Positions 5,877 to 40,876 of a DNA stretch of 50,379 nt are shown here, one piece after another. Numbering within the stretch: position 1 is the first letter of the stretch; each line of letters begins with the position of its first letter. Below the pieces are notes generated by a model. It saw only the letters and a program-made list of their open reading frames with translations, had not been told where the DNA came from and did no database searches. The stretch spans positions 1 to 50,379 of the forward strand of contig CAMDJH010000007.1 in the NCBI GenBank assembly GCA_945900455.1, given 5' to 3'. The DNA is from Akkermansia muciniphila. GTDB lineage: Bacteria; Verrucomicrobiota; Verrucomicrobiia; Limisphaerales; UBA9464. A program made the translations under genes and the position numbers.

Positions 5877-7274
5877 TCAAATCAAACCCCGGATCGGGGT
5901 GCCCCGGGTGACGGCTTCGAGCAAATTCCTCGGTAACCCGTCGGTCACCCGCACTTCGCCGATGTCCAGCAAGGTGTGCATGATCGTGGCCATCAAATCC
6001 TGCATGCCGATCCCGTCCGAAGCCGGCTCCCCTCCGTCCCGTGTGGACTGCCCGATCACTTGGCCCATTTTCAATCCGCCGCCGTACAGCAGCAACGGCG
6101 CAAGGTTGCCCCAGTGATCGCGCCCCCCGTTGCTGTTGATCGCCGGGGTCCGGCCCATCTCTCCACAACAGACGAGGAGAATCTTCTCGCTCAACCCGCG
6201 GGCCTCGACGTCGTCAATGAACGCGGACACGGCGTGGTCGAACGGCACACCCACATAGCCCATCCCGTCGGTCATGGGGGCATTGTTGACGTCGGCGTGC
6301 ATATCCCAGACAAAACTGGTTGTCACAGTCACGAAGCCGCAACCCCGCTCGCAGAGACGCCGCGCCAGCAGGAGCAGTTTCCCGAGAGTGGCCGCGTTGT
6401 CTGCGTAGTGCGCACGATTATTCCACCGGGTGCTGATCCGCTCCTTGGGAACCAGCGGGGCCGTGTCGTAGCGCGCGATGAGCTTCGGATCCTCCTTCGA
6501 CAAATCAAATGCCGCGGACACGCCGCGCAAGAGCGTGTCAAATGCCTGCTGTTGAAAGGTGCCGAAGCCTTCCACCACCCCGCTCGTGTCCGCCCACCGC
6601 TTCCACCGGTCCAGGTCGGCCAGCAAACCGCGCCGATCGTTTAGGCGCTCACGCGGCAGATTCAAGAGCATGTCCTTCTGCAAGTTGCCCCCCGCTCCCG
6701 GAACAAACGGCGCATAGGCCGTCCCTAGATCGCCGGCCGCGTTGAAATTCCCAAATTCCGTGATGGCCGGCCCGGCCTCGGGCATCACTGCCCGCGGAAA
6801 CAACGCCACATTTGTTGGCAGCCCCGTCGCCCCCTGCATCGGCCCGACAATCCGCGAATACAAGGACCCCATGTTTGCTCCCAGTGTATCGCGGCCAACG
6901 ACGGGTTTGATGTCGTGATTGGCATCCCCGGTGTAAAAGGAACGGATCACCGCCAATTTGTCCGCCCGGCGTGCCAGCTTTTCGAACGTCCCGCCGAACG
7001 TAACCCCGGGCAGGGTGGTCTTGACCTCCCCGGTGGTACTCCGGATCCCCGAAGGTGCCTCCATCTTGGGATCGAAGGTTTCAAACTGCGAAGGGCCCCC
7101 GTGCATGAAGAGGAAGATGACCGATTTGTCCCGCGCCGCCCGCGACTGGCCCTTGGCTAACGCCCGTGCCGCGCAGAGGTCGCTCAGGCTCAGACCGCCC
7201 AACCCCAGACTGCCCACCCGTAAGAACTGGCGCCGGTCCATCCCACCGCCAGCCGCGTCTTGAAAGGTCAACAT
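5877..7274 (-). CDS. DUF1501 protein, Tat-exported, standing alone
   Basis: A 465-residue protein of the DUF1501 family, a sulfatase/alkaline-phosphatase-like fold abundant in Planctomycetota and Verrucomicrobiota. The N-terminus carries a Tat-like leader, MDRRQFLRVGSLGLGGLSLS. Seen in the body: VIFLFMHGGPSQFETFDPK (nucleophile/metal region), the CERGCGFVTVTTSFVWDMH segment, and the C-terminal CCGEMGRTPAINSNGGRDHW with LLYGGGLKMGQVIGQS. The usual DUF1549/DUF1553 partner is absent here; the upstream neighbour on the same strand is dinB, 98 bases away. That gap has a 6-bp hairpin, CCCCTC-CT-GAGGGG (7294-7307). Biochemical function of the family is unknown. Confidence 0.88.
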   Translation of the reverse strand: MLTFQDAAGGGMDRRQFLRVGSLGLGGLSLSDLCAARALAKGQSRAARDKSVIFLFMHGGPSQFETFDPKMEAPSGIRSTTGEVKTTLPGVTFGGTFEKLARRADKLAVIRSFYTGDANHDIKPVVGRDTLGANMGSLYSRIVGPMQGATGLPTNVALFPRAVMPEAGPAITEFGNFNAAGDLGTAYAPFVPGAGGNLQKDMLLNLPRERLNDRRGLLADLDRWKRWADTSGVVEGFGTFQQQAFDTLLRGVSAAFDLSKEDPKLIARYDTAPLVPKERISTRWNNRAHYADNAATLGKLLLLARRLCERGCGFVTVTTSFVWDMHADVNNAPMTDGMGYVGVPFDHAVSAFIDDVEARGLSEKILLVCCGEMGRTPAINSNGGRDHWGNLAPLLLYGGGLKMGQVIGQSTRDGGEPASDGIGMQDLMATIMHTLLDIGEVRVTDGLPRNLLEAVTRGTPIRGLI

Positions 7275-7372: not shown

Positions 7373-8557
7373 TTACGAATGACGTCGGCGCGGCGGCTCT
7401 CCTCCTTTGGCATGGAGCGGGAGCTCCAATTGCCGAAGTCGATCCTCGACCAAGGAACTGACACCCAATCCCAGCAGGCGCAGCGGGCGGTGGACGAGAT
7501 GCTCGCGCCCCAGAAGCCAACACCCCAACCGAAACACAACGTTTGCCTCGGTTATCGGTTCTTCCATTGAGAACTGCCGGGTCAGGGTCGTGAAGTCGCC
7601 ATAACGGACCTTTACGACCACGGTGTGCGCCGCCAGGCGTCGTCGGGCGAGTTTTCCAACAATCTCATCGGCGGCCTCCCGCAGGCACTTCCGGAGGACA
7701 GACCTGTCATCGGTGTCGCGCAGAAACGTGGTCTCGCTGCTGATGCTCTTGACGTCGTCGCCAAGTTCCAAAGGTCGGTGGTCTTCACCCATCGCAAACC
7801 GCTTCAACTCGGCGGCCCACGATCCGACGAAGGGGTGTAGGTCGCCCGGGTAATCCTGCAGGTCGCCTACGGTCCGAATCCCCGCCCGGAGCAGGTTCTC
7901 CGCCGTAACGTGGCCGACGCCGTGGAGAGCTTGAACCTTGAGCGGACGGAGGAACGCCACTTTTTCGCTCTCGCGAATAAGGGTGAGCCCGCCGGGCTTT
8001 TGATAATCACTGGCCAGTTTGGCCAGCAGCTTGTTCGGTGCGACCCCGACCGACGCGGAGAGGTCTCGCCGGGAGAGAATTTCAGCCTGAAGTTTTTGAG
8101 CCAGCGGAAGAGCTGCCTCCAGGTGGCCGTCGGGAGAGCCGGCATACGGTCCATCGGACGCAACCTCGATATAGGCCTCGTCGACGGACATCCGCTGGAT
8201 TCGACCACCCGCCAGTTCGCGAACAATCGCCATGACCTCATGGGATTCTCGTTGATACACGTCCATGCGAGGTCGAACGAAAATACCGTCCGGACATAAC
8301 CGGCCGGCCGTAACGCTGGGCATGGCCGATCGAACGCCGAACCGCCGCGCTTCGTAGCTCGCCGCACAAACGACACCACGTTGGGTGGGGGGCGACCCCA
8401 CGATGACCGGCCGCCCTCGAAACTCGGGTCGATCACGCTGCTCGACCGAAGCATAAAATGCGTCCATGTCCAAATGGAGAATCACGCGGCTCAACCGGCA
8501 CAATCTAGGAAGCCAAGCATCGAGTTCGCGAAACAAAAGTTTGTCGTCCACGCCCAT
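7373..8557 (-). CDS. dinB: DNA polymerase IV (Y-family translesion polymerase)
   Basis: Error-prone polymerase that extends DNA past lesions. Catalytic motifs are clear: HLDMDAFYASVEQRD at the N-terminus and MSVDEAYIEVASD about 110 residues later, with the PVIVGSPPTQRGVVCAASYEARR finger segment between. The helix-hairpin-helix LHGVGHVTAENLLRAGI and little-finger ETTFLRDTDD follow, and the C-terminal RQLELPLH looks like a beta-clamp-binding motif. The frame is open to 8620. I chose the ATG at 8557, but the conserved sequence begins only about 30 residues later, and TTG at 8494 or GTG at 8485 are serious alternatives. It is divergent from the P450 gene. Confidence 0.92.
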   Translation of the reverse strand: MGVDDKLLFRELDAWLPRLCRLSRVILHLDMDAFYASVEQRDRPEFRGRPVIVGSPPTQRGVVCAASYEARRFGVRSAMPSVTAGRLCPDGIFVRPRMDVYQRESHEVMAIVRELAGGRIQRMSVDEAYIEVASDGPYAGSPDGHLEAALPLAQKLQAEILSRRDLSASVGVAPNKLLAKLASDYQKPGGLTLIRESEKVAFLRPLKVQALHGVGHVTAENLLRAGIRTVGDLQDYPGDLHPFVGSWAAELKRFAMGEDHRPLELGDDVKSISSETTFLRDTDDRSVLRKCLREAADEIVGKLARRRLAAHTVVVKVRYGDFTTLTRQFSMEEPITEANVVFRLGCWLLGREHLVHRPLRLLGLGVSSLVEDRLRQLELPLHAKGGEPPRRRHS

Positions 8558-8646
8558 CCACTCGGCGCGCGGACGCCGGGCGGGCATGGAACTCCACCCA
8601 TGTAGACTTGTTCCGCGCACGTCTTCCGCAGAGACGTGTGCTGAAT

Positions 8647-8665
8647 GATGCTTTCAAGCAGCATC
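8647..8665. promoter_or_regulatory. Inverted repeat between divergent dinB and P450 genes
   Basis: GATGCT-TTCAAGC-AGCATC is a perfect 6-bp dyad with a 7-base spacer, centred about 30 bases before the P450 start codon and within the short divergent gap. It could be an operator for the P450/2OG-oxygenase operon or dinB, or a small hairpin in the leader. There is no experimental or family support. Confidence 0.25.
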
Positions 8666-8687
8666 TAAACGCGGGACACTCGCTTCG

Positions 8688-10040
8688 ATGCTTCCGATCG
8701 CACCATGGATTTCGCGAGCGAAGTCGAGATTTTTTGACCGACTCAAGCGGCACCCGGTCGCTTGGGCGCGCGCCCATGCCGCGCTGTCACGGTATCCGTT
8801 GCCGCCGGGTGACTTCGTGACGCTCGACCTCCTCGAGAAGACAGATCGGGATGCGATCCGTCGGCGGGCCGACGCGCTGGGACCCGTGTTCAAGGGAATC
8901 GCCTGGAATGAGTTGTGCATCTGTATTGTCGGGCTCGACCGTTGCCGGCTGTTCACGGAGGCGCACCGCGCGGACCTGCGGGTCCTCTCGCTGCAACTCG
9001 ATCATCTCATCCCGAAGGGCTTCTTCTGCGCGATGGAGGGAGCCGACCATCGGGACATCCGCCGCGCCACCCATCGAGCTCTGCGCGGCTGCCCGGTCGC
9101 GCCACAGGATTCATTCCCGAACGAAACCGTGCTCGAAGCCATTGCCACCGGGGCACTGCGCAACTACGCCGACCGGGCCGCCGAACATGCCAATCCCGCG
9201 GCTGCTTACACCGCCGCGATGTCGTCCATCGCGACGTCGATGTTGACCTGGATGTTTTTCGGAGCCGAGCCGGGAACAGCCGAGCATCAACGGTTCCTTG
9301 CCTACTTCCACGAGCTCGGTCCGAACGGCCTCGTTTGGAACCCCCAGAAACGGGAGGAGAATGCCTTCCGGGCGTTCCGTGATGATTTGTGGTGCGAGGT
9401 CGAGGCCCTGCGGGCGGGCACAGGAAAGCTGTCGAGCGAGGGAATGTTGGCGCGAATGGTCAAGGATGGAACCTTAGATGAATCGATGCTCGGCAATCTC
9501 ATCTATCAGGTCGAGATGGCACGTTCCGATCTGGAGAGCTTCTTCCGCTGGTTGACGCGCCACGCCAGCGATGACTCGATGCTGCTCGAGCGGATTGCCG
9601 CTGAAAACATGACGGATGGCGGCGCGTGCCCTCTGACGGAGGCCTTTGTGCTGGAGACATTGCGCACCGACCAGAGCGAGCGGGCGATGCGTCGCGCGGA
9701 ACGCGACATCGTGTTCGAGGGTTTCTTGATCCCACGGCACGCGATGATCCGGTTGTGCCTGTGGGAGTCTCACCATGCGGCAAGCTCTTTCGCGGATCCC
9801 CACCGCTTCGCCCCGCAACGGTTCCTGGCCGAGATGCCGGGGACCGACCGCTTCGCCCCATTCGGGGTCGATCATCACAAGTGCCCGTATGGCGGGGTCG
9901 CCACCCGGATCGGCGTGGTGTTCCTGCGGTCGCTGGCCCGCGGGTATCGAGTGACTGCTCTAACGAAGGGTCCCGCGGTGCGGGGTCCCAATCTCTGGGG
10001 TCCAGCTCCCGAATTCGCCGTGCAGCTCAGGCCCCGATGA
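8688..10040 (+). CDS. Cytochrome P450-like monooxygenase with atypical I-helix
   Basis: A 450-residue soluble P450. The K-helix ExxR is in FVLETLRTDQSER (about residue 322). The haem loop is FAPFGVDHHKCPYGGVATR with the proximal cysteine at about residue 399, and the meander has ADPHRFAPQRFL. The I-helix (about 272-291), YQVEMARSDLESFFRWLTRH, lacks the normal (A/G)Gx(D/E)T acid-alcohol pair, so oxygen activation may differ (peroxygenase-like or non-oxygenase chemistry); this is inference. No ferredoxin or reductase gene is nearby. The stop codon overlaps the start of a 2OG oxygenase gene (ATGA), so the two products are probably made together and act in one tailoring pathway. Confidence 0.85.
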   Translation: MLPIAPWISRAKSRFFDRLKRHPVAWARAHAALSRYPLPPGDFVTLDLLEKTDRDAIRRRADALGPVFKGIAWNELCICIVGLDRCRLFTEAHRADLRVLSLQLDHLIPKGFFCAMEGADHRDIRRATHRALRGCPVAPQDSFPNETVLEAIATGALRNYADRAAEHANPAAAYTAAMSSIATSMLTWMFFGAEPGTAEHQRFLAYFHELGPNGLVWNPQKREENAFRAFRDDLWCEVEALRAGTGKLSSEGMLARMVKDGTLDESMLGNLIYQVEMARSDLESFFRWLTRHASDDSMLLERIAAENMTDGGACPLTEAFVLETLRTDQSERAMRRAERDIVFEGFLIPRHAMIRLCLWESHHAASSFADPHRFAPQRFLAEMPGTDRFAPFGVDHHKCPYGGVATRIGVVFLRSLARGYRVTALTKGPAVRGPNLWGPAPEFAVQLRPR

Positions 10041-10921
10041 CGTTGGATGGTTTAGAATCGGCAGGACCCTTCACATCGATGAAACCACTTCCCGCACAGG
10101 CTGCATTGTACCAACCCCGCCAACTGGGCATTCGCCTCCAGCTCGACCCAAGAATTCCCGACTTGGGAGACGAGGATATTTCGTTATTACTGAAGCTGCT
10201 GGTTCAGCACGGCGTCCTCTGCATCGTCAACCAACCTTTGAACCCTCGTGAATTGCACGAGTTCACATCCCGATGGGGAGCGGTCGTCGAACTCCCGGCG
10301 GGACTGGCTCTCGCAAATCAGGAACCCGGCCTGCCCAGCATCACGCGCGTGGGCAACATCTGTCCCGACGCCAGCATTATCCCGTCCATGCGGTTCGCCG
10401 AATACTGGCATCACGACGGCGATTTCTGGCCGTCCGGTCAGAATTTCATCGTGAACTTTCTGAGCAGCGTTCGAGTACCGATCGTAGGAGGGCACACGGG
10501 ATTCCTGGATTCCAGACTGGCGTACGAGAGGCTCGAGGAGCCTCACCGATCGGGGTTGGAAGGGGCGACGATAACGGTCCGGGCATCGCAAATCAGCGAC
10601 TTCAAGAAGGCCGCTCCCCACGAGCTGCCACCCGATGTTCAGCATCCGGTCCTATTTCCGCACCCCTTGACCCAGCAACTCGCCCTGTATTTACCCGATT
10701 CTTCCACAGGGATTCAGAAGAAGGACGGGCAGTTTTGGGGGACCGTTGAATCGCTCGTCGAATCGTCGCAGCAAAAGGTGGGTATTGTCGAACACGCATG
10801 GGCGGAAGGTGATTTGGTGGTCATGGATAACCTGCAGGTCATGCACCGCGGCATGGGTGGATATGGTGATCACCCTCGACTGCTGTACCGCTGCCAGGCC
10901 CGAATTCAGGGCCCTCGGTAG
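10037..10921 (+). CDS. TauD/TfdA-family Fe(II)/2-oxoglutarate-dependent oxygenase
   Basis: A 294-residue oxygenase starting at an ATG that shares ATGA with the P450 stop codon. The iron facial triad is visible: HxD at His125-Asp127 in [13 protein letters not shown], and a distal histidine in [13 protein letters not shown] near residue 265, followed by the 2-oxoglutarate-binding arginine in RLLYRCQ. The central [13 protein letters not shown] and [14 protein letters not shown] are the TauD core strands. The compact pattern resembles PvcB/IsnB-type enzymes of isonitrile pathways as well as general TauD proteins, but no isonitrile synthase (PvcA/IsnA) is in the window. The frame is open far upstream inside the P450 gene, which is not coding in that frame. 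Confidence 0.88.
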
Positions 10922-11034
10922 TGTTCGAAGCGGGGGTGATGGATGGACACATCCGGCCAATCAAGTCTCGCTATAAACTCATATCGACGCCCGCTCCGAT
11001 TCCGCTTGCAGCGGGAAATCATGGAAAATACTGT

Positions 11035-11088: not shown

Positions 11089-11901
11089 ATGCAAGCTTTC
11101 TCAAGATTTTTCCGGGGCCGCGACGCCCGCGCATTCACCCTCATCGAACTCCTCGTTGTGATTGCGATCATCGCCATTCTTGCGGGCATGCTCTTGCCGG
11201 CGTTGGCAAAAGCCAAGGGGAACGCCCAGGGGATCAAGTGCCTCTCCAATATGCGCAACTGGGGTCTGGCGACGCAGATGTACGCCGATGACAGCGGGGA
11301 TCGTATCCCGTTGTTCGGTGACCTTTCGTCTGATTATACGGCACCGTTCTGGCACTCGAAGCTTGCGCCCTACGTCTCCAAGCAGGCGAACACTGGAAAG
11401 GTGAGCTTTGACAAGACCGCCATCTACAATGATGAGCTGCGGAAATGTCCGGGCGGAAGCACCGGGCCCATTCCCTTCGGCCGATCGACGTCAACCGGTC
11501 CTTCGACAAACTGGAACTGCTGGATCGGCGCGAACTTCGGCGCCTTCGGATCGCCTTTGAGCGGCCCATTCTACTATGGCGACACCACACCGCCCCTGAA
11601 GATTGCACGCATTCGCCGCCCCTCGGATGCAATGATGTTCATGGATACGGTATCGCACTACGTCTATTCACCCGTGGATGCCAACTACCACTTTACGGTG
11701 GATGCAAACAAAGACGGCGTCGTCGATACCATGCCGCAGTATCCAGACACGCCTTTTAATTATGGCCGGCCTACGGTGCACAACAACGGAGCCAACGTGA
11801 CACTGCTCGACGGGCACATCGAGCGCGTGGCGTTCAAGGTGCTCTGGGCCGTGGACTCAAAGAAGAATGTCACGCATTCGTTCTGGTACATGGAGGATTG
11901 A
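11089..11901 (+). CDS. Prepilin-type protein with N-terminal methylation site and H-X9-DG motif
   Basis: The start at 11089 gives [20 protein letters not shown], a short basic leader followed by the type IV prepilin cleavage/methylation site (cleavage before FTLIE) and a hydrophobic helix [18 protein letters not shown]. Total is 270 residues. The C-terminal [13 protein letters not shown] fits the H-X9-DG signature common in large paralogous families of Planctomycetota and Verrucomicrobiota. It should be a pseudopilin-like secreted or envelope protein processed by a prepilin peptidase, but no secretion genes are next to it, so it is an orphan. The frame extends upstream to 10921, but that extension has no prepilin logic. 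It converges on the DUF1015 gene. Confidence 0.88.
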
Positions 11902-29543: not shown

Positions 29544-30110
29544 TCAAAATGCTGGATCAAATCCGGCTCCCGTCAGCTTCGCTGCCACCATCGCGTCATG
29601 GAGCGGCTCGGAGACGAAGATCATGACGCCAAAGCCGAACAGTCGAAAGATGTGAACGCCTTCAGGAACTTTTGAAGGATCGATGATTGGGTTACTAACC
29701 CACCGATAGCAGCCGGTCTGATCCAGTCCAAACATCTTCTCTCCATCTGCAAATTTCTCGAAATGAGATTTACTCTCATCAAGCGCATTCAGTATCCGAA
29801 GAATGTTTACCACATAAAACCCACGAATAGCTTCTCCTACTATCCCGGGAACCACTTGAGTATGCCCGGCGCAGAACGAGTTAAATATTTTACACGCCTT
29901 GTTAGATAACACAGGAATCGCACCACCTGCATGTGAATAATCGGAATCCCTCCCACTGCGGACACATTTCACGTGAATCATGACACCCTCTTCCCATCTT
30001 TTTCCATTGAAAAGATTTGGATTGGCATTTTTTCGATTCCAGTAATTCGGGTAGTCTAAACTCCAACTCTCAGGGGAAGACACAAAGTCATGAAGTCGAT
30101 AGTATTTCAT
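29544..30110 (-). CDS. Imm11 (DUF1629)-like immunity protein
   Basis: A 188-residue soluble protein whose ATG overlaps the stop codon of the giant toxin gene (ATGA). The N-terminal MKYYRLHDFVSSPESWSLDY and the order of later elements fit the Imm11/DUF1629 family, which accompanies AHH-type nucleases in polymorphic toxin loci: GAIPVLSNKACKIFNSF, the FYVVNILRILNALDESKSHF segment, VHIFRLFGFGVMIFVSEPLH and the closing LTGAGF. It should bind and block the nuclease in the producing cell. The gene is noticeably AT-richer than the surroundings (counted 60-base lines give 33-57 percent GC). Family assignment is by pattern, not by a search. Confidence 0.72.
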   Translation of the reverse strand: MKYYRLHDFVSSPESWSLDYPNYWNRKNANPNLFNGKRWEEGVMIHVKCVRSGRDSDYSHAGGAIPVLSNKACKIFNSFCAGHTQVVPGIVGEAIRGFYVVNILRILNALDESKSHFEKFADGEKMFGLDQTGCYRWVSNPIIDPSKVPEGVHIFRLFGFGVMIFVSEPLHDAMVAAKLTGAGFDPAF

Positions 30111-33100
30111 TTCGTCACAGATTTAAAGAGCTCCGATAGAGGATTGGTCAATTCGGTCCTTATTCTAATAAGTTCTCCATGCAATGCTGGTGCTAGCAAT
30201 GACTTAAATGCCAACGATGTCCGTTCTATAGCTTGACCTTGATTTTGTAATGAAGCCGCCAATTTGTCTTCAACTGACTTGAGCCTATCATAGACCAACT
30301 TATTATAATCTGGATGTGGGCCTCGGTGGCCGGGGACCTGAATAATCCATTCATCGGCATAGGGATTAATGCCCGTCCCACGGAACAGATCATTAAACTT
30401 ATCCGTAAACGGTCCCGCGCCATTGGGTGCCTTGGAGTTCCGATTCTTGTTGGTGCAAATGTGATGTTTGGGTAGCTTGTCCCCCGCACGCTCCACCGCC
30501 GCATAGTATGCTTCGAGGCTTTCCACGACCGCAATCTTGTCGCCCTTGAATCGTGTTGCCCAGTTGGCGAAATCATCCACATTGCCTTCTTTGGCAATGA
30601 ACAAGTGGTACAGCTTTTGAAAGCCAGCTATAGCTTCTTCGGATGCCTCTTCGCCGAGATACAGGATTAGTTCCGCCTGGCGCTTGAGGAACCACTTGGC
30701 CTTGCCCTGCGTTCCAAACCCGCCCAATTCTTCCGCGACCATCATGTCTTCGACAAGGTGGTCAATGTTGACCTTGTTTCGCCCCTTCTTCCGCACGAAC
30801 TCGGACACGATCTCAATCACCTGCGCGCAGCCCGTGAGGGATGCGAGCGCAGCCCGCCGGTGGTTCATCACCGTGAAAGCACCATTCGGACACGCGAGAT
30901 CCGTCATCCGCATCAGGGCCTGCAAGCCCCGCATTTCAGCTTCATTCTTGCAGAAACGCGCTCCCACGCGCGTGAAACCGTTTCGGAATATCTGCGTTGA
31001 ACTTTCAATCAACAGTTGCAGCGGTCCACCACGGGCCTTTTCGATGATAAGCGACAGATACCGTCCGGCCCGGCCCGCCACCCCGATCTTCGCCAGTCCG
31101 GCGGTCCCAACCGTCACAACAATTTGCTCGGAAATCATTCCCCCTACATAACCCTCGATATAGGCCGCGAGTGCTCCGTTTGCGACGGGATCCTCGGCGT
31201 CGTAGCCGAACGGAACAGCGGCTTCGGCAGCGTCCATCATGGCGTGAAACATGTTGGCTCCGGTTTGCTTCACTTGGACCCACGTCATCTTTGTCAGTGA
31301 TTCAAAGCTCGACTTGATCTCGCCTGCCACGTGAAAGGGATTCCGAAACAGGTTGTAGATCCCCACGGCTCCATCGATGTCGCCTCTGAATCCATCGCGA
31401 ACGCCGAACACAAAACCTTTGCCCAGGCTGGCCGGAATTTGGACTCCCTTTTGGACCCAGGGAATCATCGCTTTCGTGGTTAAAGTTCGTTCATCAAGGG
31501 GCCGCGGGCCCAATTCGGCAAGTCGTCGCGCGGATCCCTTCCGTGGCGGTCGCTTGCTCAGCGGCGACGCGTCCACCCGACTGACGCCTATTGTCTCGTC
31601 CGGCAGGGTATGACCCGAGACCGCAGCCCACTCCAAGGGCGGGGTGTGGATCGTTTCATCGACGGTATCGATCAACGACGCGAACTCCTCATCCCGGATC
31701 AGTTGCCTCTTGACCGTTTCCACTCGGTTCCCGGAGGCGTCGATCACCTGAGCTTCGATTTCTCCATACCCATCGAAGATTGCATAAAACTGCAGCGGTT
31801 GGTCATGCCCGGAGTTAATGAAAATGACCCTGGGATTGGGAAAGGGCTCGACTGCGGAAGGATTCGTCGCGGCCTCGATCTCCTCGCTCGAAAGAACATT
31901 CGTGATAGAATCATAAATCGTGTGTGTTGGACGGCTTCCAAAGAGGCTGTCGTAAGTGCCGAGGTCCTCGCCCGTGCCGGGATTGACGAATCGAACACTC
32001 TTGTCCCGCCAGTATTCCTCGTCATTGATCAATTCACCCCACGCCATTCGGTCGCGGGAATTCAATGTGGTTCCGGCAAATACCAGGGTAACTGCACCCT
32101 GGCCCTGTCCGGCCATTGTGCTCGGATCCACGACGTAGGTATCCGTGGTCGTACCACTTCCCCGCCAAGATCGCTTCGTGTAGATGGGCGTGCGATTATG
32201 TCCATCGACGGAATCCGGCACAAATTTCTCCCACCACACATGCTGAGCGTCCGTCTTGGGAGAACCAAATTTGATCCGATACTGCGCGGCGCGGAACTCT
32301 CCGTATCGTCCATCGGATGAAAGGTGCTGCATGCCGAGGATCTCATCATCCGGGTACGCGCTGAAATTGCCCTGAAAGGACGCCGGGCACTGGCTTTTCG
32401 CCGCAAGCATGAAATCGTGGTCGCTGTTTTCGTTCTGATAGTCTTGAAACCAGGAGAAGTTGAATGCAACCGGCAGAATTATAAACACGGCAGCCTCCGT
32501 GTAAATATATGCCGGATCAAACCTGCCTTGAAAAAAGGTTAACGTGCCGGAGGAGCCTGAAGAATACGTAATCAATCGCTCCCCATGAGGGGCTCGAGGC
32601 AAGGGATGCCACCAACCGGTCTCCGACCGGGACAACATTCCGGTTTGCGGATCGAAGTCTTGGGTGATCGTTCCTACTCCATAGCCTGTAACGTGGGCCT
32701 CCCGAGTTTCGCTAAACCCGGTTGCCCCAAAGCCATGAAATGTCGTGCGCGTGTACAGTTTGCCGTTCGGCGCTCGCATTGAATCAGGAGGACGCACAAT
32801 TCCGAGATCTCGAGAATTACATTCTATAATTTCTGCTGAGATTACGTAATCCTCGCCATCCAAGATTCCATCTCCATCCGAGTCTGGATTCAAAGGATCC
32901 GTCCCGATGGCAACTTCCCTGCCATCCAACGATCCATCGCCGTCGGTGTCCGGAAGGAGTGGATTTGTTCGGGCCAAAAACTCTCCTAGATTGTCCAGTC
33001 CATCGTGATCCGCGTCACCGTGGGCACCACCCAACTCGACTGGATCAACCGCTAGGCGGGCCTGTCGGCGATTGGCCGGAATTGGGGCCGTTTTCGCCTT

Positions 33101-36100
33101 AACAAAACCGAACTTTACTTCCCACCCATCCGGCAGGCCATCTTCGTTGGAGTCGGTTGATAAAGGATTTGTGCCATAAAGCCGCACTTCATCTGAATCC
33201 GATAACCCATCCCCATCCGTGTCCGCCAAGAAGGGAGATGTACCGTACAGGCGGAACTCGTCTCCATCCGACAATCCATCTTCGTCGGCATCGGGATTCT
33301 GTGGGTTGGTCGCCAGATAGATTTCATCGAGATTCGACAGCCCATCGTGATCGGGATCAGCCAATCCCGGGTCGGTATTTTGATGCAACGCAAGGCCATA
33401 TTTTTGAGCGAGGTACGACAGAACACTATCCCGTTCAACAACGCCGAGCGAGCGATCATAGATCAGGCACTCTGCGATATCACCGTCAAAGTACGGTCGG
33501 TCGGACCAGTCATAAGAGGTTCCCAGAGTAATCGGATTTGGAAAAACGAATCCGCCTTCGTTCGGAACGTTCAGTAGATCGGCACCATTCATGCTACAAG
33601 ACCACAACTCGTAGCTGCTGGCAGCGGCGAACAGGTGGGGCTGCGAAAGTCGTTCCGTTGACATCAAGCCTTCGAAACGATTATAGGAGCCGAATCCCTC
33701 GGTAATGGATCCCTCCGGAGATACGTAGCTGCCTCCAAACGACGCAAACCAGAAGCCACCCCCTTGCCGCACTCGCCGGACCACGAACGCTTCCGCTCCG
33801 AGTCCGTAATTCAGTTCCACGGGGATATCAATGGTATCGTTCGTTCCGTCAAAATGGATCCATTTGACACCGGTCGTGCGATCGATTTCCAGGGTCGGAC
33901 GCCGATCGAGGAATGGTTGACGTCCATGGGTGGCATTGCCGGAGTTGTCAGGCCAGAGGCCTGAATCGGCCACGGCCTCGCCCCCAAACGCGGCACTGAG
34001 CCAAACCCTGGGACTGGCCGGAGGGGACTTAGAGCCGGAGGAAGTCTTGAGTTTGGCAACGGGTGAATACGCAGAAAGTCCCGTGGAGGTGACGCTTCGA
34101 ACTCGATAAGACATCGTCAATCCAGGGGCAACGGTTCGGTCTGAAAACAAGACGATGTTGGTGACCGTCGCGAGCGGGAGCCAGGCGTTCGTGCCCAGTT
34201 TCCGTTCGACGGAATAGATACCACTCAACTGAGCATTCGGCGAATTCCACACCAAGTGCACCGAGCCAGAATCCAGCGAATACGCCCAGAGGTTGGTTGG
34301 ACCGACGGGTCGGTTCGGAATCCCGTATCGATTGTTGAAATAGCGATCAATCTCGGAACGTTGGACATCGCTCAAAGCGTGATTGAACACCAGCATCTCG
34401 GCAATTGCGCCCTGGAAAAAGCTTTCGGGCTCACCTGATGCAAAATTTCGAAATCCATTCCAACCGAGCTTGGGATCCGTCGGGGCGACAAACTGGTTGC
34501 TAGGGTCTTCGGAGAGCAGCACGCCATTTTCCCACAGACTCCATTTGTCGGACAGACTGGCCACGTGCAGAGCGCGGTGATTGGTTGCGCCAACCGCCGA
34601 TGGAATCCCACCTCGAGCCCAAGCGGACGCGAAATCGTCATAAAGCAGCCCGTCCCCCCAATGAGGCATGAAGGATTGTCCCTCCTGACCCATCTGCCAG
34701 AGACCGCCGCCCACAATCGGCTGGTACACGATCCACGATTCCGCCGCCGCTGCTCCACTGAGAACCGGCGGAAGGTGGAGGAATTCACCGTTGCCGGAAA
34801 ATTGAACAGCCTTTCTTCCGTGAATCGCATTGGTGACTGCGATCGGTCGGAGCAAGCGGTTCGCCTGGATTGCGTGGTTCTCGTGTCCGGACAAGTCCAA
34901 CCATACGCCGTAAAGCAGGGAGCGTGCATTCTCACCATTCAGCCATAGGATTGGATCACCCGGTGGACCCACCGGGATCGCGGCCAGTGATTTGCAGGAC
35001 ACAACACTGGAATAGGGAGAGATGCCAAACCCGTTATCACAACGGATCCGGTAGCTATAATTTGTATAAAGACTAATGGACCGATCGAGGAATTCCGAAC
35101 CGTTCGTGACGAATCCCGCGAGTTTCCATGGGGTACCGGGGATCTTCCGTTCGATTTGGTACACGCACGTATTATTGATCGTCACCTCATTCCAAAACAC
35201 GTGGAGTTGGTTGGTGGTTGTCGCAAGGGCCAGAACATTGGTAGGGGCGGATGCCGGGGCAATGAAGCCGTAGCGCCGGTTCAAATAGCTTGTCACGGCA
35301 CGGTGCTCTTCGGCAGATAAGAGCCGGTCAAAAAAGAGCATCTCAGCGATTTCACCTCGAAAATGGAAGTCGCGAGGGCCCCACGGATCGTTCGGAACGG
35401 TACTGACACCCAATTCGGGTCTGGCCGACCAAACGACCCGATTGGAGGCGAGCGCCTCGATCTCAATCCCATTGACCCAGGAGTGATACCCGGCCGAACT
35501 GGCCGTCACATGATGCCAATGGAATTCATCGATTGAAATAGGCGGTGGAATCGGTAGTGCGGCGGCCGGCCTCCCGAAAGATTCAACAATCTGCCCCTGC
35601 GGATCCGGGTAAAGTGTCATTCCTCCACCGAGTTTCCAGAGACCTCCTGGCTGGGTTGCTCGCATTACGGCCCACACCTCGCCCTCGGTGGCATTGGTCA
35701 GACTCGGGGTCAGAATAAATCGACCATCACCGGTGAAGCGATAGACGGATTGGTGCAGGTTGGTCGAGTAAACCAGCGCAGGACGCTGCCACGGATCCGT
35801 CTGCATGGCATGCCAATTGTTCCCAGAGCGGTCAAACCAGAATTCTGGCTCCAACGCGTCGCTCGCCTCGGCACGCAACCACATCTTCGGATTACAGACC
35901 GCGGCAACTTCGCCGGGACTTATCAACGCAACGGCCTCAGAGGTTGCATAGGCGGAGGCGCCAATCCAATTCGTCGCGGCCACTCGATAGCGGACAAGAG
36001 TACCGGGGGCCGCTGAAACCGTGTCTTCGACCGGCTGAACTCCGTCGTAACTCCCCACCCATGTCCAGGAGTTTGATCCCAGCTGCCGTTCAAGCCGGTA

Positions 36101-39100
36101 GCCGATTTTCGTCAGCGACTCGACCGGACTCCAGCGGATCCGAACGTGATTTGTACCGACGGGCAAACCGGATATCGAGGCAGGTATCTCCGGCCACTTG
36201 AACAAAAAGTGTCGAGCATTGAGATAGTGCTGGAGCCTCGCCCTCTCAGCCCCATCCAGTGTTCGATCGTAGACTAGGACCTCGGCAACATCCATGAGTC
36301 CACCGATGGACCGGCTGCCGACAATCCCTTGAAACGAACCCGGTCCATGCGCCACGGGACTCCCGTTGAAGAGGATCCCGGATTCAAGCGTCGACGAATG
36401 CACCCCGTAGATTCCCCACTGATTAAATGCGGGATTGGGAGGAAGAGCGGCCCAACGGGTGCTCGATCCAAAATCTTCAAGAACGCCGGTAGCGGCATCG
36501 TAGTGAGACCCGGCCCGCGAGGAACCAAATTGCCATGCGAGTCCGTGTTGCGTTGTTCTTATACCGGGACCTCGAAGTACCATCCAAGCCTCGGCCTGCA
36601 ATAAACCAAGGTTTAGGTCTGGGACGATAATTCCCAACCAGTCGAATCCAGGCGCGGGCGGCCTCTCTCCAGAGAATGTATTCCAACGGGGCTCGACATA
36701 TTGCCGATCAAATCGAGCATGCCGTTCATTGCCTGAAACATCGATCCACCGGGCACTGGCACTCCGGAGCGATCCGGCGGATTCACCCACCAGCCAAAGT
36801 TTAGGCGCCGCTGGGGGCAGATATTCGGTCGAAACCGGAACTGCTACGGAAGACTCGACGCTTGGGCTCCCGATGCCAACATCGGTCGCGAACCGGACCC
36901 GATACCGATACCTGCGGCCGGCCTCGACGGACGTGTCGACGTACCGACCTTCATCCGTAACCATCGCCAGGTCCGCATAAGGCCGATCATCGACAGATCG
37001 CTCCACGAGGGTTTGAACCCTTCCGCTGACCGGCCATTCTGTCCAGAACAGTTGAACTTCGCTGGTCTTCGTGGCGATCGACATGACATTTTGAGGCGCG
37101 GGAACATCCGGCACGATTTGATGCTTTGCCATCAAGTGACGCGCCAGGGTCAAACGCTCCGCATCGGAGAAGCTTCTGGAGAAAACCAACACCTCCAGAA
37201 TTCTGCCACGGAATGGAAATGGATCTCCGCGCGATCCATGACCGAGTGCGAGACCGGTCTCACCCCACACTCTTGCGGCCGTAGTGAAGTACTGCGACAC
37301 ACCGTTCAACCAGATTCCATAACTGTTCCAACCGCAGGAAACATTATAGATATGCCGCTGAGTAATATCCGTGATTTGGGACGTCGCAAAGACGGGTCTT
37401 TCGATTCCAAAGCTTTCCTGAATCCTCGAGTTGCCAATTGGCTGCTGGTAAAGGGGAGGCACCGATCGACTGCCCATTCGCCATTCATTTTGTCCGGAAT
37501 CGCTTTCGAGAATCACGAAGGCTTCAGCGACACTCATCGGTTCTCGAAGTGGAACCTGCATCAGATTGGTTCCCAAGAATGCCACGGCGCGTGAAGCGTC
37601 ACCCAGATCAACGATTGGAAAGCTCCCACTCGCCGACTCGGCGGCAGCGTGGTTGCGTCGGCCCGATTGATCAAGCCAAGCCCCCAAACGGATGGAATCA
37701 CTCCGCTGAGAATCGAACCATACGGTTGGATCGTACCGTTGGATGACGGGATCGAGTGTCGACACCGTCGCGTGTGCAACCGGTGAAGGGTCCGAGAAAC
37801 CCGCCCCGTTGATTGCCCGAAGACGATAGTCATAGCTTTGGCCTGCGACCACGTTTGTATCGCGCCACACCCGTTGATTCGTGACCACAATGACACACTC
37901 ATATCCTCCGTCTCCCGTCCGTCTCTGAATTTCGAAGATCATGCTTCGCTGGGATTCCGCCGGTTTCCAGCGAACTTCAACGGCGTCCCCACCCGCCTGC
38001 TCCGCCACCGTGTCCGCCGGCGGATTCGGTGGTTTCAGATCTATCCCGGATCGTTGAAGAAAAAATTGTTCAACGAGTTCCCGTTCGACGGGTTGAAGCG
38101 CGGGGGCGAAGACGCAGAAATCGGCGACCCGTCCGCGAAACGGCAGCGTCCCAAGGCCATTGTCTCCCAAGACTAGCGGGTTGGGAAATGTGGTCGTCGG
38201 ATTAGCATCGGAAAAGATCAGTTGACCGTTGATCCAGGCGGTCCACTCGCCATTCCGAGCCAGAATGTGATACAGGTGAAATTCGCTCAAATCCACATCG
38301 GTCGGGTACACCGTGTCTGGGCGCCCGGTGTTTTCAGCCAAGGGAAGCCCAACGAAGTGGAAATTGTGAAGACCGATACCCAAGTGCCAGAGCGAGCCGC
38401 CCGGCTCGCTTTTAACGAGCGCAAACACTTCCATAGCGGCACCGTTCGTGAGGAATCCCGGGATCTCAATCCGGTCGTCGAGTCCATCGAACAGAGCGGA
38501 TGGAATGCCGTCGTGGATTGCAACGGCCGGCGTGGGCGTTCGATTGGACGCCGCCTGAAAACCGTGATGGCCGTTTCCCGATAGGTCCGGCCAAACCCCC
38601 GTCGAGAGGCCATCCGCGGTTTCTCCCGTCAGCCAGATCGCCGGATGGACGGGGACGTTCGCCCACATCGCGGGAAACGTCGTCGCGCTGACCACCGGAG
38701 AAGGCGGCCCGTCACCCGCGATGCTGCATGGAACAACCCGGTAATGGTATCCGGTGACGGGAAGCAAATTGCGGTCCGTGAAGGAAACCTCATTGGTGAC
38801 AATCGCAATCGCGCGCCATAGGCCGTCGGATATCAGACGTTCTATACGAAACGCTCCGGGAAGGCCCGAGACGGATTCAGGCGGACGCCAGGACACCACG
38901 ATGTCGCTTGATCCGATGGCAACCGCTGAGGCAACGGCAACGGCATCCGGCTTTGGGGCGATGCGTGCCTCCGTGTTCAGATAATCATATACGACTTGAT
39001 TCTCTAATAATGAAAGCTTTCTATTGTAGACAATTATCTCCCCAATGTCCCCGATAAATGGCGAACGGTAGCGTGCTTGTCCAACCCAGACAAAGGGAAC

Positions 39101-40876
39101 ACTGCCCGGGATGTGATTGGAGGCAAGATGCGTCAACGAAAGGCCATTGAACCAGTCTTCCCAGGCGGTTTCGAATGCCCTGACATGATAAATTGACCAC
39201 TGTTTTGAGTAGCCTGATCGGAGAGGGTGGACCTTTCCCACATCCGTCAGCAGCATACTTAGTAGCGATGCGTCCGAAAGCTCCGGCCCGAGCTGCTGCG
39301 AACCGAATCCAAGGACACTTCCACCGCGATCACTCCTGACCACCAGAAACACTTCCCCCCCGGCCTCGAGGGGAAGTCCCTGGGAAGTGCTCAATATTTC
39401 ATTGCCCCGAAACCGTGCCACCTTTTGCCCAAGCGCAAGATCGAAGACGGCCAACGGTTGGTTGGGGATCGACAATTGCACGGCGTTGCGATGATTCCCC
39501 GACTGGTCCACCCACTCGGCGATACCGGCTCCAGCCTCCGCTCGAATGCCGTCAGCCCCGAGCCAGAGTTGCAATCCGTCCGTCGGGATTAAACTCACGT
39601 CGACCGTGGTCGAGTCCCGACATAGGAGTTCACCCGAACGGGCAAGTCCGCGGACGATCAGGGAGTGGGTGCCGCCCGTTCGCGGCGTCCAGGGCAACAC
39701 TCGGGCCGACCCCGGCCAAATCGCCGACCGTGATCCGTCAACCAAAAGCTCCATCGAAGCGATTTGGCGATATCGATCTTCCAGGCTGATCGCAATGGGG
39801 TTGTCGCGGCCGGGCGCGAGCCCCGTTGCGCCTTGGGGCGAGAGTAAGCGGAGGATGGGCGGCGGCAGATTGCTCGCGACAAGTACAAAGGTGCGCTGTA
39901 CAGCTTGAAACTCGCCCGATCCCACAATATCACCGGCATCATTGATGGCCCTGGCTTCCCGCAGAATCCAGCCGCTCTGGGGATCCACTCGCGTGTTTAG
40001 GTCGATTGCCTCCGCCCCCTGCCAAAGAACAGCTCTCGAGGAACCATCGCCCATCGTCACACTTCCAACGACTTGATGGGAACGATTCAGGGCCGATGCC
40101 CGAGCATTCGTACCGCCGTCGATCGGCGCAAGCCAATGAACGTTCGTCCCGACAAGCTGGAACGGTTGCTCCGCAGTGGAGCTCCGCGCATTTCCCAAAA
40201 CGACGCCCGATTCGTTGATCGCGACCGCCTCGAATAATTCCCATCCGGAGGGGGCGAAGGCATTGAGATCTGTTGCAATCTTGTTCACCCATCGGACGGC
40301 GCGAGCCGTTCCCCCGTCGGCAAGTGTGGCCGTGCCGACGACGACGCCGGAAGAGTTGATTGCGAGGCCGACGCCATCCGTTCCGCCCAACCCCGGCAAG
40401 GTCGACATCACCTCACCCGATATGACAACCGCCTGCGCACCGTCGGTACCGTCGACCGCCCCGACGAGGACTCCGCTCTCATTGAGCCCGAAGCAAGACG
40501 TGCCGCTGGTTCCAATGGGGCGCAACTCCAAGCCCGGCCCGCCGGATAGGGCGATTCGCATTCCATTTTGAACGAAAGTACCGACGAACCTGCCCAGGTC
40601 ATTGATGGCTATAGATATAGGCTGAGCTCCGGGTGGCACCTCGATAAGAGTCACGGAGGCATCTGAGAGGTTAAATAAGAAGATATTTGTGGCCGAATCT
40701 CCGGCCGACACGCCCACGAGGATGCCCTGATTGTTTAAATTTCCCGGACGGGTGGAGAGCCCCGTGACGGCATCGAGATCAATTAAAGCGGTGGCGACGG
40801 CGGCGTTATTAAATAAAATGCTTACATATATCATCCATGCGAGAGTTCTCGCTAGGCAACGCACGCCGGGAAGCAT
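30107..40876 (-). CDS. Giant secreted multidomain polymorphic toxin with C-terminal AHH-type nuclease
   Basis: A single 3589-residue frame with no interruption. Seen in order: a signal peptide (about 1-30); seven HAF-type repeats of the form xINxxGxxVG (about 45-330, e.g. AINDLGRFVG, AINSSGVVVG, AINDAGDIVG); an Ig-like segment (to about 430); seven LamG/ConA-like modules alternating with six fibronectin-III modules (about 433-2500, period about 309 residues); seven thrombospondin-type-3 DxDxDG repeats (about 2502-2677); an unfamiliar region (about 2680-3100); a pre-toxin segment with a hydrophobic GMISEQIVVTVGTAGLAKIG stretch; and an HNH/EndoVII nuclease core at 3468-3537, followed by a helical tail. 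The protein should be exported, bind glycans or other surfaces, and deliver a DNA- or RNA-cleaving domain. No RHS/YD, haemagglutinin, PAAR or T9SS domain is present. The Imm11-like gene overlaps the stop codon. A dyad precedes the gene, but no Shine-Dalgarno is clear. Confidence 0.88.
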   Translation of the reverse strand: MLPGVRCLARTLAWMIYVSILFNNAAVATALIDLDAVTGLSTRPGNLNNQGILVGVSAGDSATNIFLFNLSDASVTLIEVPPGAQPISIAINDLGRFVGTFVQNGMRIALSGGPGLELRPIGTSGTSCFGLNESGVLVGAVDGTDGAQAVVISGEVMSTLPGLGGTDGVGLAINSSGVVVGTATLADGGTARAVRWVNKIATDLNAFAPSGWELFEAVAINESGVVLGNARSSTAEQPFQLVGTNVHWLAPIDGGTNARASALNRSHQVVGSVTMGDGSSRAVLWQGAEAIDLNTRVDPQSGWILREARAINDAGDIVGSGEFQAVQRTFVLVASNLPPPILRLLSPQGATGLAPGRDNPIAISLEDRYRQIASMELLVDGSRSAIWPGSARVLPWTPRTGGTHSLIVRGLARSGELLCRDSTTVDVSLIPTDGLQLWLGADGIRAEAGAGIAEWVDQSGNHRNAVQLSIPNQPLAVFDLALGQKVARFRGNEILSTSQGLPLEAGGEVFLVVRSDRGGSVLGFGSQQLGPELSDASLLSMLLTDVGKVHPLRSGYSKQWSIYHVRAFETAWEDWFNGLSLTHLASNHIPGSVPFVWVGQARYRSPFIGDIGEIIVYNRKLSLLENQVVYDYLNTEARIAPKPDAVAVASAVAIGSSDIVVSWRPPESVSGLPGAFRIERLISDGLWRAIAIVTNEVSFTDRNLLPVTGYHYRVVPCSIAGDGPPSPVVSATTFPAMWANVPVHPAIWLTGETADGLSTGVWPDLSGNGHHGFQAASNRTPTPAVAIHDGIPSALFDGLDDRIEIPGFLTNGAAMEVFALVKSEPGGSLWHLGIGLHNFHFVGLPLAENTGRPDTVYPTDVDLSEFHLYHILARNGEWTAWINGQLIFSDANPTTTFPNPLVLGDNGLGTLPFRGRVADFCVFAPALQPVERELVEQFFLQRSGIDLKPPNPPADTVAEQAGGDAVEVRWKPAESQRSMIFEIQRRTGDGGYECVIVVTNQRVWRDTNVVAGQSYDYRLRAINGAGFSDPSPVAHATVSTLDPVIQRYDPTVWFDSQRSDSIRLGAWLDQSGRRNHAAAESASGSFPIVDLGDASRAVAFLGTNLMQVPLREPMSVAEAFVILESDSGQNEWRMGSRSVPPLYQQPIGNSRIQESFGIERPVFATSQITDITQRHIYNVSCGWNSYGIWLNGVSQYFTTAARVWGETGLALGHGSRGDPFPFRGRILEVLVFSRSFSDAERLTLARHLMAKHQIVPDVPAPQNVMSIATKTSEVQLFWTEWPVSGRVQTLVERSVDDRPYADLAMVTDEGRYVDTSVEAGRRYRYRVRFATDVGIGSPSVESSVAVPVSTEYLPPAAPKLWLVGESAGSLRSASARWIDVSGNERHARFDRQYVEPRWNTFSGERPPAPGFDWLGIIVPDLNLGLLQAEAWMVLRGPGIRTTQHGLAWQFGSSRAGSHYDAATGVLEDFGSSTRWAALPPNPAFNQWGIYGVHSSTLESGILFNGSPVAHGPGSFQGIVGSRSIGGLMDVAEVLVYDRTLDGAERARLQHYLNARHFLFKWPEIPASISGLPVGTNHVRIRWSPVESLTKIGYRLERQLGSNSWTWVGSYDGVQPVEDTVSAAPGTLVRYRVAATNWIGASAYATSEAVALISPGEVAAVCNPKMWLRAEASDALEPEFWFDRSGNNWHAMQTDPWQRPALVYSTNLHQSVYRFTGDGRFILTPSLTNATEGEVWAVMRATQPGGLWKLGGGMTLYPDPQGQIVESFGRPAAALPIPPPISIDEFHWHHVTASSAGYHSWVNGIEIEALASNRVVWSARPELGVSTVPNDPWGPRDFHFRGEIAEMLFFDRLLSAEEHRAVTSYLNRRYGFIAPASAPTNVLALATTTNQLHVFWNEVTINNTCVYQIERKIPGTPWKLAGFVTNGSEFLDRSISLYTNYSYRIRCDNGFGISPYSSVVSCKSLAAIPVGPPGDPILWLNGENARSLLYGVWLDLSGHENHAIQANRLLRPIAVTNAIHGRKAVQFSGNGEFLHLPPVLSGAAAAESWIVYQPIVGGGLWQMGQEGQSFMPHWGDGLLYDDFASAWARGGIPSAVGATNHRALHVASLSDKWSLWENGVLLSEDPSNQFVAPTDPKLGWNGFRNFASGEPESFFQGAIAEMLVFNHALSDVQRSEIDRYFNNRYGIPNRPVGPTNLWAYSLDSGSVHLVWNSPNAQLSGIYSVERKLGTNAWLPLATVTNIVLFSDRTVAPGLTMSYRVRSVTSTGLSAYSPVAKLKTSSGSKSPPASPRVWLSAAFGGEAVADSGLWPDNSGNATHGRQPFLDRRPTLEIDRTTGVKWIHFDGTNDTIDIPVELNYGLGAEAFVVRRVRQGGGFWFASFGGSYVSPEGSITEGFGSYNRFEGLMSTERLSQPHLFAAASSYELWSCSMNGADLLNVPNEGGFVFPNPITLGTSYDWSDRPYFDGDIAECLIYDRSLGVVERDSVLSYLAQKYGLALHQNTDPGLADPDHDGLSNLDEIYLATNPQNPDADEDGLSDGDEFRLYGTSPFLADTDGDGLSDSDEVRLYGTNPLSTDSNEDGLPDGWEVKFGFVKAKTAPIPANRRQARLAVDPVELGGAHGDADHDGLDNLGEFLARTNPLLPDTDGDGSLDGREVAIGTDPLNPDSDGDGILDGEDYVISAEIIECNSRDLGIVRPPDSMRAPNGKLYTRTTFHGFGATGFSETREAHVTGYGVGTITQDFDPQTGMLSRSETGWWHPLPRAPHGERLITYSSGSSGTLTFFQGRFDPAYIYTEAAVFIILPVAFNFSWFQDYQNENSDHDFMLAAKSQCPASFQGNFSAYPDDEILGMQHLSSDGRYGEFRAAQYRIKFGSPKTDAQHVWWEKFVPDSVDGHNRTPIYTKRSWRGSGTTTDTYVVDPSTMAGQGQGAVTLVFAGTTLNSRDRMAWGELINDEEYWRDKSVRFVNPGTGEDLGTYDSLFGSRPTHTIYDSITNVLSSEEIEAATNPSAVEPFPNPRVIFINSGHDQPLQFYAIFDGYGEIEAQVIDASGNRVETVKRQLIRDEEFASLIDTVDETIHTPPLEWAAVSGHTLPDETIGVSRVDASPLSKRPPRKGSARRLAELGPRPLDERTLTTKAMIPWVQKGVQIPASLGKGFVFGVRDGFRGDIDGAVGIYNLFRNPFHVAGEIKSSFESLTKMTWVQVKQTGANMFHAMMDAAEAAVPFGYDAEDPVANGALAAYIEGYVGGMISEQIVVTVGTAGLAKIGVAGRAGRYLSLIIEKARGGPLQLLIESSTQIFRNGFTRVGARFCKNEAEMRGLQALMRMTDLACPNGAFTVMNHRRAALASLTGCAQVIEIVSEFVRKKGRNKVNIDHLVEDMMVAEELGGFGTQGKAKWFLKRQAELILYLGEEASEEAIAGFQKLYHLFIAKEGNVDDFANWATRFKGDKIAVVESLEAYYAAVERAGDKLPKHHICTNKNRNSKAPNGAGPFTDKFNDLFRGTGINPYADEWIIQVPGHRGPHPDYNKLVYDRLKSVEDKLAASLQNQGQAIERTSLAFKSLLAPALHGELIRIRTELTNPLSELFKSVTK
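30266..30475 (-). other. AHH-type HNH/EndoVII nuclease domain at toxin tip
   Basis: Encodes residues 3468-3537 of the giant protein. The paired histidines in LPKHHICTNKNRNSK, the GPFTDKFNDLFRGTGI helix and the VPGHRGPHPDYNKLVYDRL segment have the order and spacing of AHH/WHH-type nucleases of the HNH/EndoVII superfamily found at polymorphic toxin C-termini. His3471/3472 and the later histidines are the expected catalytic and metal residues; this assignment is from family knowledge. Confidence 0.75.
32840..33373 (-). repeat. Thrombospondin type-3 calcium-binding repeats in giant toxin
   Basis: Residues about 2502-2677 contain seven DxDxDG(L/I)xD units such as DPDHDGLSNLDE, DADEDGLSDGDE, DTDGDGLSDSDE, DSNEDGLPDGWE, DADHDGLDNLGE, DTDGDGSLDGRE and DSDGDGILDGED. 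Units four and five are separated by an insert of about 30 residues rich in Ala, Arg and Pro. The repeats should bind calcium and form a rigid stalk between the lectin-like array and the toxin half. Confidence 0.85.
33374..39580 (-). repeat. Protein-level tandem array of seven LamG/ConA-like and six Fn3 modules
   Basis: Module starts share a W(L/F) core followed by a D-(Q/L/R/V/N)-SGN-x-x-H motif, for example LWLGADG with WVDQSGNHRNA, IWLTGET with WPDLSGNGHHG, and VWLSAAF with WPDNSGNATHG; core tryptophans are at residues 438, 748 and 2292 for modules 1, 2 and 7. Each module ends in a DIAE(C/M)L(I/V)(Y/F)xRxL-type strand and Y-LNxRYG helix. Fn3 modules with PPxxVxVxW-type starts fill the gaps. 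DNA copies are diverged, so this is an old array. Confidence 0.75.

Follow-up and report, generated by a model that had tools for sequence, protein, structure and literature searches.

The locus raises the question of what a cytochrome P450 and an Fe(II)/2-oxoglutarate (2OG) oxygenase, encoded side by side with no scaffold enzyme next to them, act on, and how the pair arose. Both genes lie on the forward strand of the window, by which we mean the whole stretch of DNA analysed (50,379 nt; Akkermansia muciniphila GCA_945900455.1, contig CAMDJH010000007.1, positions 1-50,379, forward strand): the P450 gene, encoding 450 amino acids, at 8688..10040 and the 2OG oxygenase gene at 10079..10921. We compared the window genome (G000) with its nearest relative, from the same genus (G002); with three relatives that bear orthologues of the pair (G012, G029 and G242, from two other genera, G242 belonging to another family of the order); with a genome of another class (G357); and with two genomes whose P450 of this family is linked to xanthine dehydrogenase (XDH; G020 and G031). 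G000 and G002 are draft MAGs of 260-420 contigs, with completeness of 90% and 93%. The closest relative, L019 (CAMAUY010000039.1), is deposited as Akkermansia muciniphila, a label that is probably wrong, and appears to correspond to G002, whose genome spans 5.9 Mb and has many NRPS matches. The comparison indicates that the pair is probably the carrier-less remnant of a tailoring cassette, in which a P450, an NRPS-like A-T-TE enzyme and a 2OG oxygenase were encoded in that order and only the oxygenases were retained.

The preliminary description of the locus had presented the pair as lacking a scaffold enzyme. None is encoded on the window contig and the statement holds for the genus, but the condition appears to be derived, because relatives carry an A-T-TE gene between the two oxygenase genes. 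Homologous P450-2OG pairs were found in G012, G029 and G242, and in each the conserved third gene is the A-T-TE gene, which encodes a single-module NRPS-like enzyme with adenylation, carrier and thioesterase domains. In G012 (L021), a single A-T-TE open reading frame of 896 amino acids lies between orthologues of the P450 and 2OG genes whose products are 64-65% identical to those of the window; G242 has the three genes in the same order (L063), and in G029 the set is distributed over two loci (L022, L031), the contig break falling within the NRPS gene. The adjacency of P450 and A-T-TE extends to other parts of the phylum: it recurs in G357, and in G020 and G031 a xanthine dehydrogenase gene is followed by a P450 of the same family and then by an A-T-TE-containing NRPS. 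The relatives identify the two oxygenases as a reduced form of this cassette and so argue against an origin as a stand-alone pair of primary metabolism. The adenylation-domain code of the relatives' enzyme, read by hand, is DIAQITLVW (one automatic alignment mis-set position 278); it keeps Asp235, which suggests an α-amino acid substrate but points to no particular one. We found no description of a bacterial P450-(A-T-TE)-2OG cassette in the open-access literature, although absence there is weak evidence.

The A-T-TE gene is missing from both assemblies of the window genus. While the NRPS orthologues of G242, on the one hand, and G012 and G029, on the other, are 57% identical, the best matches in G000 and G002 reach 35-38%. 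The cassette loci L021, L063, L064 and L023 share the adenylation-domain signature NLYGPTE..[VI]W; it is matched nowhere in G000, a genome rich in NRPS genes (28 NRPS-type matches). In a tree of the P450s, the window pair of sequences (G000 and G002) falls among the cassette P450s, and two lineages without an NRPS are nested among NRPS-linked ones, so that at least two changes are needed; this tree does not resolve the deepest splits of the cassette clade, and loss of the NRPS is therefore the simplest reading and not proof. It is quite unlikely that the NRPS gene still resides in the organism, unassembled or on a missing contig: both assemblies are fragmented drafts, but they are independent, 90-93% complete and both devoid of the gene, so that each would have had to miss a relocated copy, and the P450-2OG junction is contiguous in each. 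The opposite direction of change, in which relatives gained the NRPS inside an older P450-2OG pair and the window preserves the ancestral arrangement, would fit the unresolved base of the clade and the finding of the 2OG gene in only the five genomes with a window-type P450. We nevertheless regard it as unlikely, as the same type of A-T-TE enzyme adjoins more distant relatives of the P450 (G357, G020 and G031) and as the ATGA that both G000 and G002 retain at the end of the P450 gene resembles an NRPS start. We infer that the change was a loss.

In the window, this ATGA lies at 10037..10040 (+) and consists of the terminal base of the last P450 sense codon followed by the P450 stop codon TGA. 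In G012, G029 and G357, the P450 stop and the NRPS start overlap in an ATGA, and the same kind of overlap joins the NRPS stop to the 2OG start in G012, G029 and G242. The ATGA kept in G000 and G002 thus probably survives from the former P450/NRPS junction, as a putative relic of the start codon of the lost gene. The following 38 nt (10041..10078, +) would be a relic spacer at the position where the relatives (L021, L031 and L063) have the A-T-TE gene of about 2.7 kb; it is rich in indels between G000 and G002. The two oxygenase genes had been described as overlapping in this ATGA and as translationally coupled through it. In G000 its ATG does share the reading frame of the 2OG gene, but an indel places it out of frame in G002, and the homologous 2OG proteins all begin at the position of Met15, that is, at ATG 10079, which is likewise followed by A. 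The true 2OG start is thus most likely 10079, 38 nt past the P450 stop, giving a protein of 280 amino acids. The coupling is not conserved and is best read as a relic, and the present arrangement is probably a 38-nt gap.

Both oxygenase genes are under purifying selection. Between G000 and G002, the P450 gene has a dN/dS of 0.158 and the 2OG gene one of 0.126, and neutrality is rejected at about 1e-20 and 1e-17, respectively; values for neighbouring genes lie between 0.05 and 0.18. This indicates that both genes still work. The block conserved between the two genomes corresponds to window positions 8570-10935, and its surroundings are rearranged in G002. The flanks described for the window, dinB upstream (7373-8620, -) and an orphan prepilin-like gene downstream (11089-11898, +), are confirmed, but the arrangement in G002 shows that neither is diagnostic. 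There, dinB is reduced to an 82-bp remnant between a DUF1501 gene and the P450 (window 8028-8109, equivalent to L027:10097-10178), so it was probably lost after the pair was in place. The prepilin-like gene is strongly conserved (dN/dS 0.054) and linked to DUF1015-FKBP-mutS in both genomes, and in G002 the prepilin, DUF1015 and mutS genes lie on another contig, not beside the oxygenase pair. The pair is absent from G001. The window also contains a DUF1501-type gene at 5877-7274 (-), a type that has undergone a large expansion in the genus, with more than 100 matches per genome (116 in G001 and 147 in G002). Further downstream, an open reading frame of 3589 amino acids (30107-40876, -) combines fn3, laminin-G-like and TSP3 repeats with a C-terminal AHH nuclease domain, the make-up of a polymorphic-toxin-like surface protein.

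The P450 belongs to a divergent family that is linked to A-T-TE NRPSs in relatives; it is 92% identical to its counterpart in G002 and 64%, 57% and 58% identical to those in G012, G029 and G242. The Pfam p450 profile matches with an E-value of 1.3e-15 (57.6 bits against a cut-off of 22.8), over residues 308-421 and hence the C-terminal third only. Together with this match, the ExxR motif E323-T-L-R326 (9654..9665, +; sequence and alignment) and the aligned haem ligand Cys399 (9882..9884, +) place the protein in the P450 superfamily. Cys399 lies in the loop F-G-V-D395-H-H-K-C, where an aspartate replaces the canonical glycine at position -4; across the family the loop reads F-G-x-D-H-H-x-C, and this aspartate is invariant. 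In the I-helix, M277-A278-R279-S280-D281 (9516..9530, +) takes the place of A-G-x-[D/E]-T, according to a gap-free hhalign alignment of the family profile with three canonical P450s; PDB hmmsearch alignments give the same register against CYP46A1 and one that is off by one residue against CYP90B1. Asp281 is invariant in 13 of 13 homologues, including distant alphaproteobacterial ones, at a position that nearly all P450s fill with threonine. The preliminary description was therefore right that the acid-threonine pair of monooxygenases is missing while ExxR and the haem cysteine are kept. The pair is missing under either register, as a one-residue slip changes S280-D281 to D281-L282, still without a threonine, and yields no normal oxygen-activation motif. 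The XDH-linked paralogues mostly read Y-D-T, and the same slip produces a normal D-T pair there. An invariant Asp281 may leave a proton relay possible. AlphaFold models were discarded, having mean pLDDT values of 38 (P450) and 31 (2OG oxygenase) from alignments of three and two rows.

Profile comparisons set the family apart from characterised P450s. ApyO, a P450 that crosslinks biaryls in RiPPs, is the best NCBIfam profile for all members tested (1.7e-12 to 2.5e-16) and likely a distant relative. Identity with ApyO was rejected, because NF050147 scores 46.7 bits in the window P450 (46.7-59.4 in the members tested), whereas its cut-off lies at 525. Inspection of the genes around the P450, short of a dedicated search, showed neither a RiPP precursor nor an MNIO gene. 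A search of plasmids for relatives of the P450 returned only distant full-length proteins (29% identical) from Mesorhizobium, encoded beside a glycosyltransferase gene. On a plasmid of Mesorhizobium jarvisii (L062:15007-17297), the P450 gene overlaps that gene, of glycosyltransferase family A, by 4 bases; the annotation shows no NRPS in the vicinity, and the equivalents of Asp281 and of the aspartate in the cysteine loop are conserved.

The second enzyme is a TauD/TfdA-type oxygenase (Pfam TauD, 4.9e-31; 109 bits against a cut-off of 27) with the metal-binding motif H111-x-D113...H256 and Arg267 or Arg271 as the 2OG-binding arginine, all read from the alignment. Its best profile and PDB matches are generic members of this group, namely taurine dioxygenase, aryloxyalkanoate dioxygenases and ScoE (PDB, 1e-12 to 1e-16). 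It shares the Pfam domain, the H-x-D...H motif and the arginine with ScoE, TauD and TfdA but differs from their equivalogs in scoring about 40-53 bits against cut-offs of 313-400; the earlier label of a PvcB-like enzyme is therefore too specific. As a candidate, the isonitrile-forming ScoE was rejected at 50 bits against a cut-off of 400 (NF049937). In the local neighbourhoods of the window pair and of its orthologues (L021, L027, L031 and L063), no isonitrile synthase PvcA/IsnA was recognised.

The closest characterised parallels to the relatives' cassette are Qui18/Qui15, NovH/NovI and NikP1/NikQ, in which an adenylation-carrier NRPS-like protein likewise adjoins a P450, with a releasing thioesterase (PMC3578932). 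In echinomycin biosynthesis, Qui15 β-hydroxylates tryptophan only when it is loaded on Qui18 (PMC3578932). The window pair departs from these systems in having neither an NRPS-like gene nor the I-helix pair, and in having the 2OG oxygenase as a third member. A cognate adenylation-carrier gene is absent from G000 and G002 and present in G012, G029, G242 and G357. The 60 best PDB matches included no P450 recognised as belonging to these three systems. On the model of A-T/P450 systems that have been characterised, the adenylation domain in the relatives would most likely load an α-amino acid onto the carrier domain, and the P450 would oxidise the tethered amino acid, as the Qui18/Qui15 analogy suggests. 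The thioesterase would then release the oxidised product, which the 2OG oxygenase would modify again. In the window genus, a deletion running from one junction of the NRPS gene to the other would have removed it, so that the ATGA at the end of the P450 gene and about 38 nt were left. The retained pair would then most likely act in trans, its target being the aminoacyl or peptidyl carrier of one of the several other NRPSs in this genome or the product that such an NRPS releases. That the pair may modify what a distant cluster produces, as suggested earlier, is the mechanism we prefer, although we regard the step on a carrier in trans, taken alone, as possible rather than probable.

A second P450 of the same family occurs in G000 (L025:6602-12540, G000:C160) and G002 (L026, G002:C29). 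It is 44% identical to the first, is preceded by xdhC and a fused xanthine dehydrogenase gene and has a dN/dS of 0.19; the A-T-TE-containing NRPS that continues the same XDH-P450 order in G020 and G031 is missing.

Instead of borrowing a carrier, the pair might act on a free small molecule such as an amino acid, a diketopiperazine or a primary metabolite, the loss of the A-T-TE gene marking a switch of substrate. The missing carrier in both G000 and G002, the second NRPS-less P450 kept by the genus and a change of the conserved C-terminal YHWEP to NLWGP in the window clade only would all agree with such a switch. A leave-one-out test, however, detected no shift of selection on the P450 at conserved sites after NRPS loss: it is changed at 6 of the 95 sites conserved in relatives, compared with 3-7 in most other members, and so not more often than NRPS-linked relatives. 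As the closest characterised carrier-linked system is also inactive on the free amino acid (PMC3578932), we consider action on a free molecule rather unlikely. Use of peroxide by the P450, which the missing acid-threonine pair had suggested, is not supported. Natural peroxygenases also lack the canonical pair (PMC10988616), and the best single-sequence PDB matches of the window P450 are fatty acid α-hydroxylases, but the similarity is confined to a portion of the C-terminal third and scores about 31 bits. The NCBIfam profile for CYP152 (CypC) scores 12 bits against a cut-off of 600. The CYP152 I-helix carries Arg-Pro where the window P450 has Ser-Asp, and its Asp281 is invariant in the family; a CYP152-like, H2O2-using enzyme is thus very improbable.

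In P450s that partner small NRPS-like carriers, dependence on a tethered substrate has been found. Under the remnant cassette that we favour, a set of close genomes has the oxygenase pair in two states, one accompanied by its carrier gene and one not, at divergences small enough for the proteins to be expressed and compared. Whether carrier dependence is lost, or a carrier borrowed, as a pathway decays is therefore directly testable in these genomes. The invariant aspartate at the threonine position and the aspartate in the haem-cysteine loop bear on the mode of oxygen activation. More tentatively, a P450 family with a Ser-Asp or Tyr-Asp motif may have evolved together with a dedicated A-T-TE enzyme, and one genus may have lost the carrier at both of its P450 loci while the oxygenases stayed functional and the P450 became trans-acting or carrier-free. 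If the carrier was lost at both loci, the genus would allow carrier dependence to be compared in nature before and after such a loss, and it might hold new oxygen-activation chemistry.
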